A DNA stretch of 21,054 nucleotides, taken from the IMG/VR virus record IMGVR_UViG_3300042691_044527, positions 1 to 21,054 of that record; one strand, given 5' to 3'. A program made the position numbers and the translations under genes. Below are positions 3,726-21,054 of the stretch, piece by piece. The notes beneath the pieces were generated by a model that worked only from the letters and a program-made list of their open reading frames with translations, made no database searches and was not told where the DNA came from. Position 1 is the stretch's first letter, and each line of letters begins with the position of its first letter. The stretch comes from a virus.

Positions 3726-5375
3726 ATGAGTGAAATTTTTGGTATTTCTTTTAATCATGACTCATCTTTTTGTGCTTTTGAAAATGGTAAAGTAAAATAT
3801 TTTTCTAAAGAAGAAAGATTTTCAAAGAAAAAAAGAGATACCCACCCAGTTCTATCAATGCTTGCGTATAATACAAACGATACGGATGTTGCATTGGCTT
3901 TTTCATCACCTACATATAGAAAAGGTGTTGCAGAATCATATATTGACCTAGTTAGAAAAAAACATAATGTAAAAAATTTCGTAGAGTATTCAGACCAACA
4001 CCATCTAATTCATGCTAATCTTGCATTTTATAATAGTGGTTTTTCAGAAGCATTAGTATTTGTAATTGATAGAAATGGTTCAGTATATTTTGATTCCTGC
4101 AGAGAGTCAGAAACTGTGTTTGTGGCATCTTATCCAAATAACTTTAAACCAATATATAAAAATTTTTGGATAGAAAAAAATAGTGCACATGAAGAGCTTT
4201 TAAGATTTCAAAGAGAAAATCCAGATTGCGATGTCAATGGAAGATCTATGTTTAGCATAGTCAAGGTATATGAGTCAGCTACTTCTTTAATTAAACAGCA
4301 CCCGCTTGAAAATGGAAAAACTATGGGTCTTTCTGCATATGGAGATAAAGACATTGTATATCCAAATCTATTCATAGATAAAATTACTCCAAATGATTAT
4401 TATTTTGCTCATGACCAAATCAAAGATATGAAGGCATCAGTTAACAGAGAACTAAATCATCTTGCTATTGATTCGGTTCCAAAGAATGAATATCAGATTT
4501 ATGCAAATTACGCTTGGCAAGTACAAAAACAAACTCAAGAAGCAGTTGCAGAACTTATTAATCGTTATGTAGAAAAAACTGGAATAAAAAATGTTTGTGT
4601 GACTGGTGGATATGGACTAAATGTAGTTGCCAACTATTATTATATAACACAATTTCCAGACGTTAATTTCTTTTTTGAGCCACTTGCTGATGATTCTGGC
4701 AATAGTATAGGCGCTGCAATGAAGTTATATAGAGATCAAACTCTTGATTCAAACATATATCCGCTTGAGCATACATTTTTTAGCGGTATTAGATATGATC
4801 TAAGAGGAATACAAGGAAGTAAGACCACTGTACAAGAAGTTGCTGACCTATTATCTAATGGAAAGAGTGTGGCTATATATAATGGTTTATCTGAAGCTGG
4901 ACCTAGGGCATTAGGAAATAGATCAATATTATTTGATCCAAGAGATCCAGATGCAAAAGAAAAAATTAATAAAATCAAAAAAAGAGAGTGGTATAGGCCA
5001 TTTGCTGCAATGTCTCTTGAAAAAGATGCACAAATATATTTTGATATGGGCAAAATAGAAAAAAGCGAATTTATGACAATTTCTTTTCCCGTTAATGAAA
5101 AAGCAAAAAAGCATATACCTGGTGTTGTACACATAGACGGAACATGTAGAATTCAAACAGTAAATAAAAATAATCGTGAAATTTTTAATTTATTAAATGA
5201 ATTTAAAAACCTTACTGGCGTAGGTATTTTGCTTAATACTAGTTTTAATTTGGCTGGAAAACCTTTAGTAGAAACACCAGAAGATGCCTTTTATACTTTT
5301 AAAAATAGTAATCTAGATTATGTTTGGTTTCCAGAGATATCAAAAATAGTTTCTAGAAAAGATATAGGAGAGTAG
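3726..5375 (+). CDS. Carbamoyltransferase, NodU/TobZ family
   Basis: A full-length 549-residue enzyme of the NodU/CmcH/TobZ family, which moves a carbamoyl group from carbamoyl phosphate, through carbamoyl-AMP, onto a hydroxyl of a sugar or antibiotic. Family marks: GISFNHDSS at residues 6-14, the metal-binding HHLIHA at 92-97, GLSAYG at 201-206, TGGYGLN near 293-299, GPRALGNRSIL at 392-402 and REWYRPFA at 420-427. The N-terminal part is the TsaD-like half and the C-terminal part the YrdC-like carbamoyltransferase half. The acceptor is not predictable. Glycosyltransferase genes about 7 kb downstream make a sugar on the virion, DNA or host surface a reasonable guess. It is the first gene of a long rightward unit with its own promoter and a terminator upstream. 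Confidence 0.9.
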   Translation: MSEIFGISFNHDSSFCAFENGKVKYFSKEERFSKKKRDTHPVLSMLAYNTNDTDVALAFSSPTYRKGVAESYIDLVRKKHNVKNFVEYSDQHHLIHANLAFYNSGFSEALVFVIDRNGSVYFDSCRESETVFVASYPNNFKPIYKNFWIEKNSAHEELLRFQRENPDCDVNGRSMFSIVKVYESATSLIKQHPLENGKTMGLSAYGDKDIVYPNLFIDKITPNDYYFAHDQIKDMKASVNRELNHLAIDSVPKNEYQIYANYAWQVQKQTQEAVAELINRYVEKTGIKNVCVTGGYGLNVVANYYYITQFPDVNFFFEPLADDSGNSIGAAMKLYRDQTLDSNIYPLEHTFFSGIRYDLRGIQGSKTTVQEVADLLSNGKSVAIYNGLSEAGPRALGNRSILFDPRDPDAKEKINKIKKREWYRPFAAMSLEKDAQIYFDMGKIEKSEFMTISFPVNEKAKKHIPGVVHIDGTCRIQTVNKNNREIFNLLNEFKNLTGVGILLNTSFNLAGKPLVETPEDAFYTFKNSNLDYVWFPEISKIVSRKDIGE

Positions 5376-5564: not shown

Positions 5565-6377
5565 GTGATAGATATAGTTCCAATATCTTTTAATGGAATT
5601 GAAGATATAGAATATAACAGCATTTTGTACAAAGAAAAATTTATAAAAGATGCCGTTATGGTTTTTAGAAATGCAAACCTATCACATGAAAATCATATAA
5701 AAATTAACGATGTTTTTTCTAAAATTCTTGGATGTCATAGAGAAAATAATGTAAATGGTTATACAGAAAATCATTCAAGAATGACAGAAAATAAAAAACA
5801 TCAAGTTGGTAGTGATGATATTATGTTGACTTGGCATATTGAGCATCCGCACTACGAAAATCCAATCGTTCTTGGTACATGGAATATGCATAAGTTTACT
5901 ACAGACGAAGAAAATGGAAAAACATATTTTGTAGATACTGAAACATTATTTAATATGATGCCAAAGAATATGCAAGATTTTTCTTTTAATTGCAAAATTA
6001 TCAATCCAGTTGGAGAAACACAAGGACTTTCTGGCATACACAATTTGATTGAAAATCATTGGATAACAAATAAACCATTGATCAGAATTAGCCATTTATA
6101 TCAAACTGGAAAAGATTATCAGGTTTTGCATTCTTTTGAAAATAGAATACCAACAAGTTTTGAATATGAAGAATATAACAATGTTATTTCTTGGATACAA
6201 AATCAAATATCTAAAAATTTAGACATAAGAATGGTACATAGATGGAATCAGGGTGATTTGGCTGTTACCGATATGTACAAGATGTGTCATGCTGTTAGCG
6301 GAGGGTTTGAATCTAAAGATAGAGAGTTTACTGGAATTTGGGCTCGTCAATATAAAAACGATATAAGAAAAGGGTAG
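5565..6377 (+). CDS. TauD/clavaminate-synthase-like Fe(II)/2-oxoglutarate oxygenase
   Basis: A 270-residue protein starting at a GTG directly after the zinc-ribbon stop, with AAGAAG upstream. Iron ligands fit the TauD/TfdA fold: His91-x-Glu93 in LTWHIEHPH and distal His242 in YKMCHAVSGG; Arg261 in IWARQ is placed to hold 2-oxoglutarate. The HxE pair, rather than HxD, is the form seen in clavaminate synthase and asparagine oxygenase. Such enzymes hydroxylate or desaturate small molecules, often amino-acid derived, using oxygen and 2-oxoglutarate. Its position behind the carbamoyltransferase suggests a joint modification pathway, since hydroxylation could create the hydroxyl that is carbamoylated; this is inference. 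The substrate is unknown. Confidence 0.8.
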   Translation: MIDIVPISFNGIEDIEYNSILYKEKFIKDAVMVFRNANLSHENHIKINDVFSKILGCHRENNVNGYTENHSRMTENKKHQVGSDDIMLTWHIEHPHYENPIVLGTWNMHKFTTDEENGKTYFVDTETLFNMMPKNMQDFSFNCKIINPVGETQGLSGIHNLIENHWITNKPLIRISHLYQTGKDYQVLHSFENRIPTSFEYEEYNNVISWIQNQISKNLDIRMVHRWNQGDLAVTDMYKMCHAVSGGFESKDREFTGIWARQYKNDIRKG

Positions 6378-6629: not shown

Positions 6630-6880
6630 TTAAGCATGCTTTTTATTTTACTGCAGAGTGGTGTGGCCCTTGTAAGCGAGTTCGTCCAATTGTTGAAGAG
6701 GTCAACAGAGATAGTGCTATAAAATTTCAAATCATAGATGCAGATGATAATTTAAATTTATGTAAAAAATATTCAATAACTTCAATTCCAACTTTTATAT
6801 TAATTGAAGATGAAAAAGAAATAAGCAGAATGTCTGGAGCTAAAACTAAAAAAGAACTTGAGGATTTTTTAAATGGATAG
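6626..6880 (+). CDS. Thioredoxin-like protein
   Basis: A compact 84-residue thioredoxin fold. The redox site WCGPC has cysteines at 13 and 16, and the cis-proline loop ITSIPTF is at about residues 50-56. At 84 residues it lacks the first strand and helix of the usual 105-residue thioredoxins and looks like a glutaredoxin-sized phage thioredoxin. The start appears to be TTG at 6626, overlapping the previous stop, with GGAAG about seven bases upstream; there is no ATG between there and the active site. Likely roles are electron supply to ribonucleotide reductase, or recycling of peroxidases such as the AhpC encoded at 18013. No partner reductase is in the window. Confidence 0.85.
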   Translation: MIKHAFYFTAEWCGPCKRVRPIVEEVNRDSAIKFQIIDADDNLNLCKKYSITSIPTFILIEDEKEISRMSGAKTKKELEDFLNG

Positions 6881-7202
6881 CCACGAAGAGAAAATTATAG
6901 AGGATTTAATTTTAAAAGGAGCGTTAGAATTTGCAGGCATTGATCCAGATACTGGGGAAATGTTATACAACTTTTCTGATAAGATAAAAACAGTAATGCC
7001 TGCTCTATATGACCAACATTTAAAAAACATTAATGAAGATGTAATGTATTTTTGGGAACATGGTTATTTAGATATGGATCTTTTTTCTGATAATCCATTG
7101 GTTTTATTGACAGACAAAGCATTAGACCCAGATGAAGTTTCTAAACTCAGTGTAGAAAAACAAAGATCTTTTCAAGAGATAAAAAGAATTGTTTTGTCTT
7201 AG
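6873..7202 (+). CDS. Conserved phage hypothetical protein
   Basis: A 109-residue acidic protein starting inside the end of the thioredoxin gene, with GAGG nine bases upstream. It carries phrases such as LEFAGIDPDTGEMLYNF and VMYFWEHGYLDMD that I recall from hypothetical proteins of actinobacterial phages, but no named domain. It looks helical and soluble, with no signal peptide or membrane segment. Its end lies just before the extended -10 of the next gene. Function unknown. Confidence 0.65.
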   Translation: MDSHEEKIIEDLILKGALEFAGIDPDTGEMLYNFSDKIKTVMPALYDQHLKNINEDVMYFWEHGYLDMDLFSDNPLVLLTDKALDPDEVSKLSVEKQRSFQEIKRIVLS

Positions 7203-10442: not shown

Positions 10443-11191
10443 AAATTTATTTTTTTGGTGCTGACATTGATATTTTAGATAAGCTATATGATAGCTGGTT
10501 TGATGGTGGATTATTTTTATTCAATTCTCAAAGTGGTGATGCATTTACTAGAATTGCACGAAAATTAAACAAAGACAAACAATTCAAATACATGGTTGCA
10601 TTAAGACCATATGTAATGTCTCCGCAATATTTAGTAATGATAAATGATACATTTTATAATATATGCTCAAGAAACAATAAATTGCAAATAAATTTAATTT
10701 CTGGACATATTAAAGAAGAAGAAAAAGGTTTTGGTGGAATTATAGGAGAGGTTAACGATTCATCTCCTGGTATAGATAAATCAAAATATTTAATAGATTT
10801 TGTCCATGTTATTAATAATTTTAATAAAGAAAAGATACCAGATATTTATATATCGGCAACTAACCAATACACTTTTGATGTAGCAAAACAATACGGTCAT
10901 AAGGTAATAATGCCATATTCCCAATACTTATCAAAAGAATATGATTTAGATCCAAAAAATACAATGATATCAATAGGACCAATCTTAAGAGATAGTGAGT
11001 CTGATTTTGGTGGATTGCTAGATTTCAATCATCCAAACGATTCTAAGTATTTTACTCCGTTACAATTTAAAGATACCTTGGATCAGTTTAAAAGGGAGGG
11101 TTTTAAGGAAGTTATAATTTTTGGATGGCCAGACAAGGAAAAAGAAAGAGTAATTGAATTTGTAAAAAAATATAAAGAAGGAAAAATTTAA
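10439..11191 (+). CDS. Luciferase-like flavin monooxygenase family protein, copy 2
   Basis: A 250-residue paralog of the preceding protein. Shared blocks in the same order: GGLF, GDxFTxIAR, KYxVAxRPYVxSPQYL, LQINxxSG, FGGIxGxVxD, IPDIYISATNQYTFDVA and a PILR strand. It starts with AAGGAG eight bases before the ATG and overlaps the first copy by four bases, so both are made from one mRNA and could form a heterodimer like LuxA/LuxB. It is shorter because an insert after the SG block is missing. Its stop overlaps the next ATG. Substrate unknown. Confidence 0.65.
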   Translation: MKIYFFGADIDILDKLYDSWFDGGLFLFNSQSGDAFTRIARKLNKDKQFKYMVALRPYVMSPQYLVMINDTFYNICSRNNKLQINLISGHIKEEEKGFGGIIGEVNDSSPGIDKSKYLIDFVHVINNFNKEKIPDIYISATNQYTFDVAKQYGHKVIMPYSQYLSKEYDLDPKNTMISIGPILRDSESDFGGLLDFNHPNDSKYFTPLQFKDTLDQFKREGFKEVIIFGWPDKEKERVIEFVKKYKEGKI

Positions 11192-12201
11192 TGATTTTAA
11201 ATAAAAGCTCAATTTGTTTTGATGATATCCTATTACTACCTGGCTATTCTAATGTAGATAGCAGAAAAAATGTTGATCTTACTATGCATGGATACAAGTT
11301 TCCAATAGTGGCTTCTCCAATGGATACCGTTTGCGAATGGGAAATGGCAAAGGCAATTGTAGACGAAGGCGGTATTGGAATTATCCATAGGTACATGGAT
11401 ACTTCTGAGCGAATAGTACAAATTCAAGAAGTTGATATTAGATCACATAATAAAGACGGCCTTGGTGTAGCATTATCATCGTTAGAATGTTTTGATACAA
11501 CTTTTATAGATGATGCCATAAATGTTGGATGCCAATGGTTTTGTATTGATACTGCCAATGGTCATGGCGAAGCTGCAATTAGTGCAGTCAAACATCTTAG
11601 AGCATACTATCCAGGAATTAATATTATGGTTGGGAATGTTGCCACAGCAGAGGGATTTGCAAGACTTGCTGATTCTGGCGCTGATGCGGTTAGAGTTGGT
11701 ATTGGTGGCGGAGCTACATGTATTACTAGGATAGTTTCTGGCCATGGCATGCCCACTCTTCAATCTATTATAGATTCCTACGAATATAAAATTAATAATA
11801 ATATAAAAACATTAATTGTTGCAGACGGAGGACTAAGAACTTCTGGAGATATTGTAAAAGCCTTTGCAGCGGGTGCAGATTTAGTTATGCTTGGATCCAT
11901 GCTGTCAGGCACAGAAGAAGCTCCAGGGGACCTTATAGATGGCTTTAAAGAGCTTCGTGGCATGGCTAGTGGAGAAGCGCAAATGGACTGGAAAGGTCAA
12001 GTCTCTGTTGTTGAAGGAGTATCTGCAAAAATAAAATATAGGGGTAATGTTAAAGATATATTTAATCAAATTAAAGGTGGTCTAGGTAGTGGATGCTCAT
12101 ATTCTGGGGTGTCTAAGCTATCAGAACTGGCAAAAAATTCTGAATATACTATAGTGTCACACGCTTCATTATCAGAATCTAAGCCACATGCTATACTATA
12201 A
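11191..12201 (+). CDS. GMP reductase / IMP dehydrogenase family enzyme without CBS domains
   Basis: A 336-residue TIM-barrel enzyme. Landmarks: [33 protein letters not shown], the cysteine loop [11 protein letters not shown] with Cys177, [15 protein letters not shown] and [13 protein letters not shown]. The Bateman (CBS) domains of ordinary IMP dehydrogenase are absent, and the segment after GMAS that should hold the mobile flap with its Arg-Tyr pair is very short. Length and flap therefore fit GMP reductase (GMP plus NADPH to IMP) better than IMP dehydrogenase. The cysteine loop has Gly and Ala where the family has Pro and Ser. It would steer purines in infection, perhaps toward adenine for an AT-rich genome. 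It is coupled to the monooxygenase gene by an ATGA-type overlap. Confidence 0.85.
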
Positions 12202-16517: not shown

Positions 16518-16905
16518 AATAGTTCAGCCATCAGACATTCATAAGGCAGAAACCTATACGCCAACATCTGGCATGAAGGCTGCTGCTCGTCGTGCATTGA
16601 AATGGAAAGAACAGGGCAAAGCACGAGGTGCTGGAACACCAGTTGGTTGGGGTCGTGCAAGTGATATAGTAGCTGGTCGTGGTTTATCTCTTGATACTGT
16701 AAAAAGAATGTATTCTTTCTTTTCTCGCCATGAAGTAGACAAAAAGGGTAAAGATTTTTATAACACATCCAATCCATCTAATGGTAGGATTATGTGGGAT
16801 GCATGGGGAGGGGATGCTGGCTTCTCTTGGTCTCGTGCAATTGTTGAGCGTGAAAAGAAAAAGGCTGAAAAAGCTTGGCAAGGTAGTGGTTTTAGTACAA
16901 AATAA
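16507..16905 (+). CDS. Phage DNA-binding-like / head-region protein (WGGDAG motif)
   Basis: The start is taken as the ATG at 16507 (MRSKIVQPSD), with GGGGAG ten bases upstream, giving 132 residues; an in-frame ATG at 16480 adds nine residues. The core reads KAAARRALKWKEQGKARGAG, VGWGRASDIVAGRGLSLDTV, KRMYSFFSRHEVDK and IMWDAWGGDAGFSWSRA. I recall this set from phage head-region and prohead-associated proteins, often fused to larger ones. It is basic and helical. The role is not established; packaging or head assembly is the likely context. The gene is convergent with hsp20. Confidence 0.65.
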   Translation: MRSKIVQPSDIHKAETYTPTSGMKAAARRALKWKEQGKARGAGTPVGWGRASDIVAGRGLSLDTVKRMYSFFSRHEVDKKGKDFYNTSNPSNGRIMWDAWGGDAGFSWSRAIVEREKKKAEKAWQGSGFSTK

Positions 16906-16906
16906 T

Positions 16907-16929
16907 TGAGCAGTTTAGTCACATGCTCA
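16907..16929. terminator. Weak hairpin between convergent genes
   Basis: TGAGCA and TGCTCA form a 6-base-pair stem with an 11-base loop, between the 16507 gene and hsp20, which end facing each other. T-rich sequence lies on both sides. It may act as a bidirectional terminator but the stem is short. Confidence 0.3.
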
Positions 16930-16939
16930 GGTGATTTTG

Positions 16940-17359
16940 TTACTTGATCTTTACAGACTTTGGCTTCTTTTCTTCAGGAACAATACGATCAATATCAATA
17001 TGTAACATGCCGTCCTTCATAGTAGCTCCAGTCACTTCCATATATTCACCAAGAGCAAATGTGCGAGTAAACTTTCTACTAGCAATACCCTTATGAACAA
17101 TTTCTGCATCTGAAGACTCAGCAATCTCACCCTTAATAATTAATGTTCCATTGTCAATAGAAACATCAATGTCATCTTTAGAAAATCCAGCAACAGCAAG
17201 AGATAACTTGTATGTGTCATCATCTAACTTAAGCAGATCGTAGGGTGGATAGTTGTTTTGTCTTGATGCTAATTGAACATTGGCCAATCTTTCCATTTCA
17301 CGATTAAAGCCAATAAAAAAAGGATCCTTAAATAGATCCCATGCAAATGTACTTACCAT
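16940..17359 (-). CDS. hsp20: Small heat-shock protein, Hsp20/IbpA family
   Basis: A 139-residue alpha-crystallin-domain chaperone. The N-terminus has FFIGFNREMERLANV, then NNYPPYDLLKLDDDTYKLSL and AVAGFSKDDIDV, which match the IbpA branch, and the core ends with GMLHIDIDR and a Glu/Lys-rich tail (PEEKKPKSVKIK). It holds unfolded proteins and might help virion assembly or protect proteins under stress; Hsp20 genes are well known in T4-like cyanophages. AAGGAG lies before the ATG and an extended -10 is found 56 bases upstream, directly after tRNA-Thr. The 5' end of the RNA could fold GTACC with GGTAC. The C-terminal IxI motif appears as VKIK. Confidence 0.88.
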   Translation of the reverse strand: MVSTFAWDLFKDPFFIGFNREMERLANVQLASRQNNYPPYDLLKLDDDTYKLSLAVAGFSKDDIDVSIDNGTLIIKGEIAESSDAEIVHKGIASRKFTRTFALGEYMEVTGATMKDGMLHIDIDRIVPEEKKPKSVKIK

Positions 17360-17414
17360 TTTATTCTCCTTTTCAGCGAGTTAATTAGTACCCCCTATTG
17401 GCAGGTACATATAT

Positions 17415-17423
17415 ATTATACCA
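17415..17423 (-). promoter_or_regulatory. Extended -10 promoter (TGG-TATAAT) for hsp20
   Basis: On the minus strand TGG-TATAAT (ATTATACCA on plus) starts just two bases past the 3' end of tRNA-Thr. The predicted start near 17408 gives a leader of about 49 bases with a 5'-terminal inverted repeat (GTACC/GGTAC). Confidence 0.6.
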
Positions 17424-17424
17424 G

Positions 17425-17496
17425 AGCCCCCCGTCAGGATTGAACTGACGACCTTCCGCTTACAAGGCGGATGCTCTACCACTGAGCTAGGGAGGC
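17425..17496 (-). tRNA. tRNA-Thr (anticodon UGU)
   Basis: A full cloverleaf on the minus strand: acceptor GCCTCCC with GGGGGGC (one T-G pair), D arm TAGCTCAGTGGTAGAGCA, anticodon stem TCCGC/GCGGA with loop CTTGTAA (anticodon TGT), and T arm GTCAG-TTCAATC-CTGAC. CCA is not encoded. It reads ACA codons, common in this AT-rich DNA, and lies seven bases past ahpD. Confidence 0.95.
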
Positions 17497-17503
17497 GGTA
17501 AGG

Positions 17504-18013
17504 CTAAGAATTTAATATCTTAGCCAAAGCATTTACAGTTGCAGCAATCCTACCGATATCACGTAGCTGTTCAACAGTAAACCCTTCTTGTTTTAGTGTT
17601 TCATAATGTGCTTTAACACAAAAATGACATTTTCCAATAATAGATGATGCTAATGAATATGCCTCAAAGTTAGCTTTTGTTGTTCCGCCATGAGATGCAA
17701 TAGCATTCATCCTAAGCTGTGCTGGCAAACCCTTTAGCGCTGGATCATCAGTCATTTCAACGTATGGATACCATACATTGTTTTGAGCCATTAACGCACC
17801 CGCAGTCATTGCAGCATTTTTTTCAACCTCATTAGTTGAACTTGCAGCAATAAAAGCAATAAGTTTTCCATTACCAGTAGCAAAAGAAGCAGCTAAAGCT
17901 AAATGAGTTGCTAATTCTGGATCAACTGTACTTCGGTTAATAACAGAATCAAGGTTTAGTTTTATATCTTTTGCATACTCAGGCAAAGACTCTTTTAATT
18001 GCTCCACCCACAT
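17504..18013 (-). CDS. ahpD: Alkyl hydroperoxide reductase AhpD-like
   Basis: A 169-residue AhpD (carboxymuconolactone decarboxylase superfamily). The redox centre GKCHFCVKAH has Cys129 and Cys132, with His136 beyond and a Glu at 117 in the proton-relay position. These lie one residue from the corresponding sites of the mycobacterial enzyme (Cys130, Cys133, His137, Glu118). In mycobacteria AhpD takes electrons from the lipoylated dihydrolipoamide transferase and reduces AhpC. The start ATG overlaps the ahpC stop (TGATG), so the two are translated together. In phage DNA it would recharge the adjacent peroxiredoxin, using host lipoate electrons. Length matches the family (about 175). Confidence 0.93.
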   Translation of the reverse strand: MWVEQLKESLPEYAKDIKLNLDSVINRSTVDPELATHLALAASFATGNGKLIAFIAASSTNEVEKNAAMTAGALMAQNNVWYPYVEMTDDPALKGLPAQLRMNAIASHGGTTKANFEAYSLASSIIGKCHFCVKAHYETLKQEGFTVEQLRDIGRIAATVNALAKILNS

Positions 18014-18591
18014 CAGAGTGTTTCTCCGCCAAGTTGTCTATTGCAGGCACAAAGTTCTCCTGTTTGCAAAGCATCTAGAATTCGCAATGTCTCCTCTGGG
18101 CTTCTTCCAACATTAAGATTATTGACCGTAACATGCTGAATAACGTTGTCTGGATCAATAATAAAAGTTGCACGAAGAGCAACACCATCATCATTTAAAA
18201 CACCAAGCTGCTCTGCTAAACCTGTTGGAATATTTTCTGCCTCAGTCCAATATTTTGAATTATTACGAAGCTGATCTGCAAAGGACCACGAATTTGTTTT
18301 CTTTAGATCTTCATGTGCATTGCGCCATGCTACCTTACAAAACTCATTGTCTGTTGAGCCAGTCAATAGTATTGCATCACGATCATTAAAATCGTTAACT
18401 AGCTTATCATATGCCACGATTTCTGTCGGGCAAACAAAAGTAAAGTCCTTTGGATAATATACAACTACTTTCCATTTTCCTGGAAACCATTGTTCGCTTA
18501 GCACCTCAAAAACATCATCTGATGCATCAAGTCTACCTGGTTTTACACCAACAATACGAAATGGCTCTAGCTTGTATCCTACTGTCTTCAT
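18013..18591 (-). CDS. ahpC: AhpC peroxiredoxin (two-cysteine, mycobacterial type)
   Basis: A 192-residue typical 2-Cys peroxiredoxin. The peroxidatic Cys54 is in FTFVCPTE. The C-terminal ELCACNRQ carries Cys181 and Cys183, the double-cysteine resolving tail seen in mycobacterial AhpC. It reduces hydrogen peroxide, organic hydroperoxides and peroxynitrite, then is restored by AhpD encoded just downstream. AAGGAG sits before its ATG. Upstream on the same strand lie tRNA-Glu, tRNA-Asp and tRNA-Asn with a promoter at 18860-18888, so the peroxidase may be cotranscribed with tRNAs. All catalytic residues seem intact, so it should be active. Confidence 0.95.
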   Translation of the reverse strand: MKTVGYKLEPFRIVGVKPGRLDASDDVFEVLSEQWFPGKWKVVVYYPKDFTFVCPTEIVAYDKLVNDFNDRDAILLTGSTDNEFCKVAWRNAHEDLKKTNSWSFADQLRNNSKYWTEAENIPTGLAEQLGVLNDDGVALRATFIIDPDNVIQHVTVNNLNVGRSPEETLRILDALQTGELCACNRQLGGETL

Positions 18592-18622
18592 CTTTCTCCT
18601 TATATATAAGTGGGTTTCCCCG

Positions 18623-18695
18623 TGTCCCCAACGGGATTTGAACCCGTGTTACCGCCGTGAAAGGGCGATGTCCTAGGCCCCTAGACGATGGGGAC
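18623..18695 (-). tRNA. tRNA-Glu (anticodon UUC)
   Basis: A cloverleaf with acceptor GTCCCCA/TGGGGAC, anticodon stem TCGCC/GGCGG with loop CTTTCAC (TTC), and T arm ACGGG-TTCAAAT-CCCGT. CCA is not encoded. It follows tRNA-Asp by four bases and reads GAA. Confidence 0.95.
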
Positions 18696-18699
18696 ATAG

Positions 18700-18773
18700 C
18701 GATCCATATCAGACTTGAACTGACGACCTCTTCCGTGACAGGGAAGCGCTCTAACCAACTGAGCTAATGGACC
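18700..18773 (-). tRNA. tRNA-Asp (anticodon GUC)
   Basis: A cloverleaf with acceptor GGTCCAT/ATGGATC, discriminator G, anticodon stem CTTCC/GGAAG with loop CTGTCAC (GTC), and T arm GTCAG-TTCAAGT-CTGAT. CCA is not encoded. It lies four bases after tRNA-Asn. Confidence 0.95.
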
Positions 18774-18777
18774 TCAG

Positions 18778-18850
18778 CTGGTCTGGCAGGGCACGATCCT
18801 GCGACATTCGCATTAACAGTGCGACGCTCTACCAACTGAGCTACAGACCA
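18778..18850 (-). tRNA. tRNA-Asn (anticodon GUU) with unusual T loop
   Basis: Acceptor TGGTCTG/CAGACCA is perfectly paired, discriminator G. Anticodon stem TCGCA/TGCGA holds loop CTGTTAA (GTT). The T stem GCAGG/CCTGC is intact, but its loop is ATCGTGC instead of TTCRANN, so the usual T54-A58 pair is A54-T58 here. It starts three bases from the predicted transcription start of the tRNA/ahp unit. Confidence 0.9.
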
Positions 18851-18859
18851 ATTTATTCA

Positions 18860-18888
18860 ATTATAGCAGTAGATTGATAAAGTATCAA
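18860..18888 (-). promoter_or_regulatory. Promoter of the tRNA-ahpCD unit, with inverted repeat
   Basis: On the minus strand TTGATA (18883-18888), a 17-base spacer and TGC-TATAAT (18860-18865) form a near-ideal promoter ending just before tRNA-Asn. Its -35 is one arm of the perfect inverted repeat TTGATA-AAG-TATCAA (18874-18888), a possible operator. It is back to back with the rightward promoter at 18901. Confidence 0.8.
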
Positions 18889-20985: not shown

Positions 20986-21054
20986 TACCCCTAGTTGGAT
21001 TTGAACCAACGCTTGGACGATTTTAAGTCGTCTGCCTCTACCGCTGGGCTATAG
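20986..21054 (-). tRNA. tRNA with anticodon UAA (Leu by codon), short variable arm, truncated by window edge
   Basis: The 3' 69 bases of a leftward tRNA: anticodon stem GACGA/TCGTC with loop CTTAAAA (TAA), variable region CAAGC (5 bases), T arm GTTGG-TTCAAAT-CCAAC, and 3' acceptor TAGGGGT with discriminator A. The visible CTA at the edge pairs with TAG, and four 5' bases (expected ACCC) lie outside. CCA is not encoded. Leucine tRNAs normally have a long variable arm; this one does not. Confidence 0.85.

Follow-up and report, generated by a model that had tools for sequence, protein, structure and literature searches.

Operons in which a protein gene and tRNAs share one transcript are already known in bacteria, examples being thrU-tyrU-glyT-thrT-tufB and secG-leuU of E. 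coli. tufB is parted from its tRNAs by tRNA maturation, and in secG leuU maturation of the tRNA reportedly separates it from the protein gene. In mitochondrial tRNA punctuation, too, tRNAs mark the ends of mRNAs, and their excision makes these ends. Among phages, T4, T5 and mycobacteriophages carry compact tRNA arrays with small ORFs between the tRNAs in their large genomes, and the role of phage tRNAs is debated, mostly as codon supply or as an escape from tRNA-cleaving defences. 5'-terminal hairpins of the ompA/papA type are thought to slow 5'-end-dependent decay, and 5'-terminal stem-loops impede RNase E in sensing the 5' end (PMC3985628). Kavagutti et al. (2019; PMC6802176) described freshwater actinophages that bear WhiB, as well as phages from fresh water that carry genes for defence against ROS; the accessible excerpts of that paper name ferritin, SOD, glutathione peroxidase, thioredoxin and glutaredoxin and use tRNAs only for host prediction. 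In the literature that we searched, we found neither tRNA-adjacent peroxidases nor tRNA punctuation in phages.

The locus described here resembles each of these systems in part, and what is new in it is a covarying hairpin at the junction between a tRNA and ahpC. Unlike the bacterial mixed operons, it is phage-borne and carries a peroxidase pair, with tRNAs on both sides whose identity has been repeatedly exchanged. It is unrelated to mitochondrial punctuation, from which it differs in that the phage mRNA is predicted to keep a leader with a Shine-Dalgarno sequence and a 5' hairpin, and in that only some genes are punctuated. Whereas the arrays of T4, T5 and mycobacteriophages hold small ORFs, here a conserved metabolic pair comes with its own junction element, and, in contrast to the ompA/papA type, it would be tRNA 3' processing, not transcription initiation, that sets the 5' end of the message. 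The unit measures about 2 kb and lies in a 21-kb virus record (IMGVR_UViG_3300042691_044527), of which we analysed positions 1 to 21,054, the whole of this stretch of 21,054 nucleotides being referred to as the window. Its features, in the direction of transcription, are the following:

18860..18888, minus strand: promoter TTGATA-N17-TATAAT with extended TG (11/12 matches), the -10 ending 9 nt before tRNA-Asn
18777..18850, minus strand: tRNA-Asn(GTT), without encoded CCA (ARAGORN and Infernal, 66.4 bits)
18699..18773, minus strand: tRNA-Asp(GTC), without encoded CCA (ARAGORN and Infernal, 66.3 bits)
18622..18695, minus strand: tRNA-Glu(TTC), without encoded CCA, its last base being the C after discriminator A (ARAGORN and Infernal, 59.1 bits)
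18612..18621, minus strand: 5' hairpin GGGGAAACCC, abutting tRNA-Glu and covarying in relatives; predicted to form the 5' terminus of the ahpC mRNA after processing
18596..18611, minus strand: conserved box ACTTATATATAAGGAG, a weak palindromic stem overlapping the Shine-Dalgarno sequence AAGGAG
18013..18591, minus strand: ahpC, 2-Cys peroxiredoxin of the M. tuberculosis AhpC type (Pfam AhpC-TSA; FVCPTE, C-terminal ELCAC)
17504..18013, minus strand: ahpD, alkylhydroperoxidase D with CxxC (Pfam CMD)
17424..17496, minus strand: tRNA-Thr(TGT), 7 nt past the ahpD stop codon (ARAGORN and Infernal, 68.4 bits)
17415..17423, minus strand: extended -10 TGGTATAAT, probable hsp20 promoter, from sequence; TATAAT at the same place in L246, L146, L148 and L157
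16940..17359, minus strand: hsp20, small heat-shock protein (Pfam HSP20; phrog_432, E 3.6e-39)
16890..16945, minus strand: terminator hairpin (ACAAAAU..GAGCA / UGCUC..AUUUUGU) closing the unit between convergently transcribed genes (-15 kcal/mol, z -5.2)

ARAGORN, Infernal and Pfam bore out the order and placement of the tRNA, ahpC, ahpD and hsp20 genes proposed by the sequence-only reading, and the four tRNAs score as intact (59 to 68 bits by Infernal). The gaps of 4, 4, 31 and 7 nt that it had reported agree with the Infernal boundaries, but the gap of 0 between ahpC and ahpD turned out to be an overlap of 1 base (TGATG). It had also placed an hsp20 promoter behind tRNA-Thr, and here the extended -10 is present but a recognisable -35 is absent, which is why this site does not appear in the list of a simple promoter scan. 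The catalytic residues of the encoded proteins are conserved. AhpC, whose best match was 2bmx, carries the peroxidatic cysteine in DFTFVCPTEI and ELCAC at its C terminus, and in AhpD the CxxC, Glu118 and His137 relay residues align with those of M. tuberculosis AhpD, with His132 (CSHC) replaced (the query reads CHFC). Judged by these residues, the two proteins likely form a functional AhpC-AhpD pair.

The tRNA and protein genes lie on the same strand behind one promoter, with no intervening terminator, as in a mixed tRNA-mRNA operon. Of 15 promoter-like sites in the region, the upstream promoter ranked first, no U-run stem was found in the 31-nt and 7-nt gaps, and the gap between tRNA-Glu and ahpC is too short to hold a terminator. 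Across the related loci, 45 of 54 distinct arrays had a near-consensus promoter (at least 10 points) ahead of the tRNA with which the run begins, compared to 1.9 expected by shuffling, usually 8 to 13 nt away from it. Own promoters of ahpC scored clearly higher where no tRNA lies upstream than where one does (Mann-Whitney p 5e-7); many copies of the first kind have such a promoter, while in the second it is rare. The proposal that tRNAs and ahpC share one transcript is thus strongly supported by the lack of room for a terminator, the array promoters and the rarity of own ahpC promoters, and co-transcription appears near certain from these sequence features.

We scanned IMG/VR with AhpC and AhpD and kept the best 80 loci of each scan, which gave 75 distinct upstream regions with enough sequence. 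Within this set, in which related sequences are not independent, a tRNA was found 28 to 52 nt before ahpC in 47 of the 75 upstream regions and at most 80 nt after ahpD in 33 of 64 assessable loci, and 27 regions had tRNAs on both sides of ahpCD. The sequence-only reading had allowed for a chance insertion should no related genome show the same order; the order of the window up to tRNA-Thr was found in three further loci (L002, L003 and L033), and since 47 of 75 viral ahpC genes start within 60 nt of a tRNA 3' end, chance insertion is excluded. hsp20 directly behind the last tRNA recurred only in a few loci (L246, L146, L148 and L157), and this gene lies mostly outside the conserved unit. By contrast with the viral loci, no tRNA was found within 500 nt upstream of ahpC in the 80 nearest cellular loci (one scan), and only 1 of 80 had one after ahpD, this sample consisting nearly entirely of Burkholderiales and other proteobacteria. 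No relative of ahpD was detected in 50,697 deposited phage records, and all AhpC matches in these records were below 60% identity. The arrangement is widespread in uncultured phages, yet absent from deposited phage records as judged by ahpD.

A WhiB gene is present in the window and in 18 of 20 long contigs with related ahpC genes; according to PMC6802176, WhiB is taxonomically restricted to Actinobacteria and serves as an actinophage marker. A 120-kb relative (G008) was seen directly to have genes for portal, terminase and tail proteins, while the terminase family PF03237 matched only 2 and phrog_2 matched 7 of the 20 contigs. On the basis of the G008 genes and of WhiB, the carriers are tailed phages whose hosts are probably actinobacterial, and the arrangement belongs to a whole group of these uncultured phages.

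Immediately behind the upstream tRNA, we found a hairpin of 3 to 6 pairs in 34 of the 47 tRNA-ahpC leaders (all shorter than 60 nt), compared to 3.2 expected by shuffling. It starts 0 to 1 nt after the called tRNA, that is, after the discriminator base and one C. The stems are wholly different among leaders (GGGG/CCC, GATAC/GTATC, GGATA/TATCC and AGATCT/AGATCT, for example). Because MAFFT aligned these variable stems poorly, the claim of covariation is based on a test of arm re-pairing between leaders, in which 29 of 37 were observed against a mean of 12.2 and a maximum of 21 in 5000 trials, and on a smaller consensus fold in which all three core pairs change on both sides. The stem of the window itself has only 3 bp (leader -5.4 kcal/mol, z -1.5), and the support for the hairpin is therefore comparative. 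Among the 13 of 47 leaders without a hairpin as defined, two (L067 and L110) have one a few nucleotides further on and two (L011 and L020) have a promoter instead. Three other roles were considered and discarded: the hairpin is not a terminator, as it has no U-run, nor a DNA operator, as the pairing is kept while the letters vary, and the distance of the adjoining box to the start codon rules out a phage promoter.

At other tRNA/ORF junctions of the same phages the hairpin is almost entirely absent and the Shine-Dalgarno sequence often follows the tRNA by 0 to 3 nt, indicating that the hairpin is not a general need at such junctions. A hairpin was also found in several promoter-driven copies of ahpC (the L149-L158 group, L154, L036 and L081), starting only a few bases from where transcription is predicted to begin, whereas two further promoter-driven copies (L061 and L065) had none. 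This suggests that the hairpin goes with the start of the ahpC mRNA, wherever that start lies. The mRNA 5' end would be the common factor of tRNA-preceded and promoter-driven copies, and this is the chief new reason to place the beginning of the message at the tRNA 3' end. A paired hairpin, such as a protective 5' stem-loop would require, is seen within a few nucleotides of the putative 5' end, which is taken to be the tRNA 3' end or the predicted start. The proposal that tRNA cleavage frees the mRNA with a defined 5' end thus gains a covarying hairpin at that very end, while the cleavage itself we infer.

We consider it probable that the unit is a mixed tRNA-mRNA operon in which tRNA maturation yields an ahpCD mRNA fronted by a protective hairpin. 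RNA polymerase would start before the first tRNA and read through the tRNAs, ahpC-ahpD and the downstream tRNA. To be functional, the tRNAs must be excised from the shared transcript, which RNase Z or an equivalent (3' ends) and RNase P (5' ends) of the cell would do. The resulting ahpCD mRNA would start one base (C) before the hairpin and end just past the ahpD stop codon. RNase Z prefers precursors without CCA, and CCA was unencoded in 38 of 41 distinct tRNAs before ahpC compared to 166 of 241 other tRNAs in the same loci (Fisher p 0.001, kinship ignored); the missing CCA before ahpC thus suits RNase Z. Downstream of the RNase Z cut, the RNA would carry a 5'-monophosphate, through which decay normally gains entry, and the hairpin at the terminus would protect this end. 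Translation from the Shine-Dalgarno sequence about 20 nt downstream would then give AhpC and its reductant AhpD, which could detoxify peroxides during infection, with a presumed physiological or fitness benefit. Going further, the tRNAs may be exchangeable boundary elements of a phage form of tRNA punctuation, in which the hairpin evolved to protect the ahpCD message and peroxide defence is coupled to tRNA maturation, a broader proposal to which we give an even chance. If true, tRNAs would double as processing signals by which an mRNA is made and shielded, which would be a further reason for the presence and exchange of tRNAs in arrays, and a stress-defence gene would come under the direct influence of host anticodon nucleases or of RNase P/Z activity.

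The hairpin is followed by a conserved, roughly palindromic box that runs into the Shine-Dalgarno sequence. Together with the start codon, the box was found at one place in the window and at one in G008, each in front of ahpC, while a scan with the leader pattern gave 10 places, several at ahpC and four at other genes without tRNA or hairpin. Hairpin and box could together form a translational switch of ahpC (an RNA thermometer, a redox switch or a control of ribosome access), the processing of the tRNA being incidental. Such a switch would account for the fact that the palindrome over the Shine-Dalgarno sequence (CUUAUAUAUAAGGAG) is kept through changes in length and sequence (CTTATATATAAG, CTTATATAAG, CTATATATAG and CTATATAG), and the unit that holds ahpC also includes hsp20, a textbook case of control by RNA thermometers. 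However, the second stem is very weak, with 3 to 4 A/U-rich pairs, and the first hairpin does not touch the Shine-Dalgarno sequence; pairing and position at the start of the RNA are conserved in this hairpin but not the letters of loop and stem, also in promoter-driven copies with different leaders. We thus regard a switch as rather unlikely.

The turnover of the flanking tRNAs bears on a different explanation, which we hold to be just as doubtful, namely that tRNA arrays are hotspots of recombination and cargo and that ahpCD sits in them through an exchange of modules at tRNA sequences, the short gaps reflecting genome compaction without a functional link. Seven types of tRNA were found before ahpC (Arg, Asn, Lys, Glu, Met, Leu and Asp), the AhpC tree shows at least 13 changes of isotype among tRNA-preceded copies, many other genes adjoin tRNAs, and mosaic operons occur as well (L093, L057, L070, L091 and L246). 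In these five loci, AhpD is 90 to 96% but AhpC only 68 to 77% identical to the protein of the window, a mismatch that probably reflects recombination inside the ahpCD pair. A hotspot may well be the origin of the arrangement, but it does not account for a covarying hairpin that keeps its distance to the tRNA whatever the type of tRNA, for the almost complete lack of this hairpin at other tRNA/ORF junctions, or for the single tRNA kept between promoter and ahpC in split arrays (L146, L148, L157 and L144, for example).

Finally, it is very improbable that ahpC has its own promoter within or at the end of the preceding tRNA and that tRNA and mRNA are transcribed separately: a putative ahpC promoter, TATAAT directly behind tRNA-Glu, was found in one lineage (L011, L014, L015, L020 and L022) and TATATA occurs in the leader of the window, but the main groups generally have no promoter between tRNA and ahpC, the sole -10-like element in the window and in these groups has poor -35 matches and overlaps the Shine-Dalgarno region, so that a start there would leave almost no leader, and, as there is no terminator, such a promoter would merely add to the readthrough transcript.

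Several further RNA elements were observed in these loci. A possible hairpin with differing stems (UGGCA..UGCCA and UGGG..CCCA) occurs in ahpD-tRNA gaps of 35 to 41 nt (L048, L055, L073, L078 and others) and is possibly a 3' protective stem. In L017 (5822-6000), L019 and L096, tRNA-Asn and ahpC are separated by some 180 nt of RNA with strong structure (about -49 kcal/mol), and a structured RNA of 90 nt lies between tRNA-Arg and tRNA-Asn. In L004 and L007, a stable 70-nt hairpin and, behind it, CCTATTTTT separate a putative promoter from ahpC, an attenuator-like arrangement. A search of Rfam returned no family for the leaders or for any of these larger structured inserts. The hsp20 leader (17355-17420 of the window, minus strand) recurs in L246, L146, L148 and L157: TATAAT directly behind a tRNA precedes a hairpin, and the Shine-Dalgarno sequence lies within a second, weak stem (UUAUUC...GAAUAA, for example). 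This leader is possibly an RNA thermometer.

In L063, L119, L111, L146, L157 and others, tRNA-Met is followed after 10 to 12 nt by an ORF of about 110 amino acids (IQHYIDIGAI..GEAIFELNE) whose Shine-Dalgarno sequence abuts the tRNA, and ORF 6873-7202 of the window is similar by eye. At its end, the window contains a fifth tRNA (20986-21054, minus strand; Infernal 50.4 bits) that is truncated, being cut at its 5' end. On the plus strand, the window also carries carbamoyltransferase (3726-5375), TauD-like dioxygenase (5565-6377) and IMP dehydrogenase-like (11191-12201) genes, the last of these read by eye.
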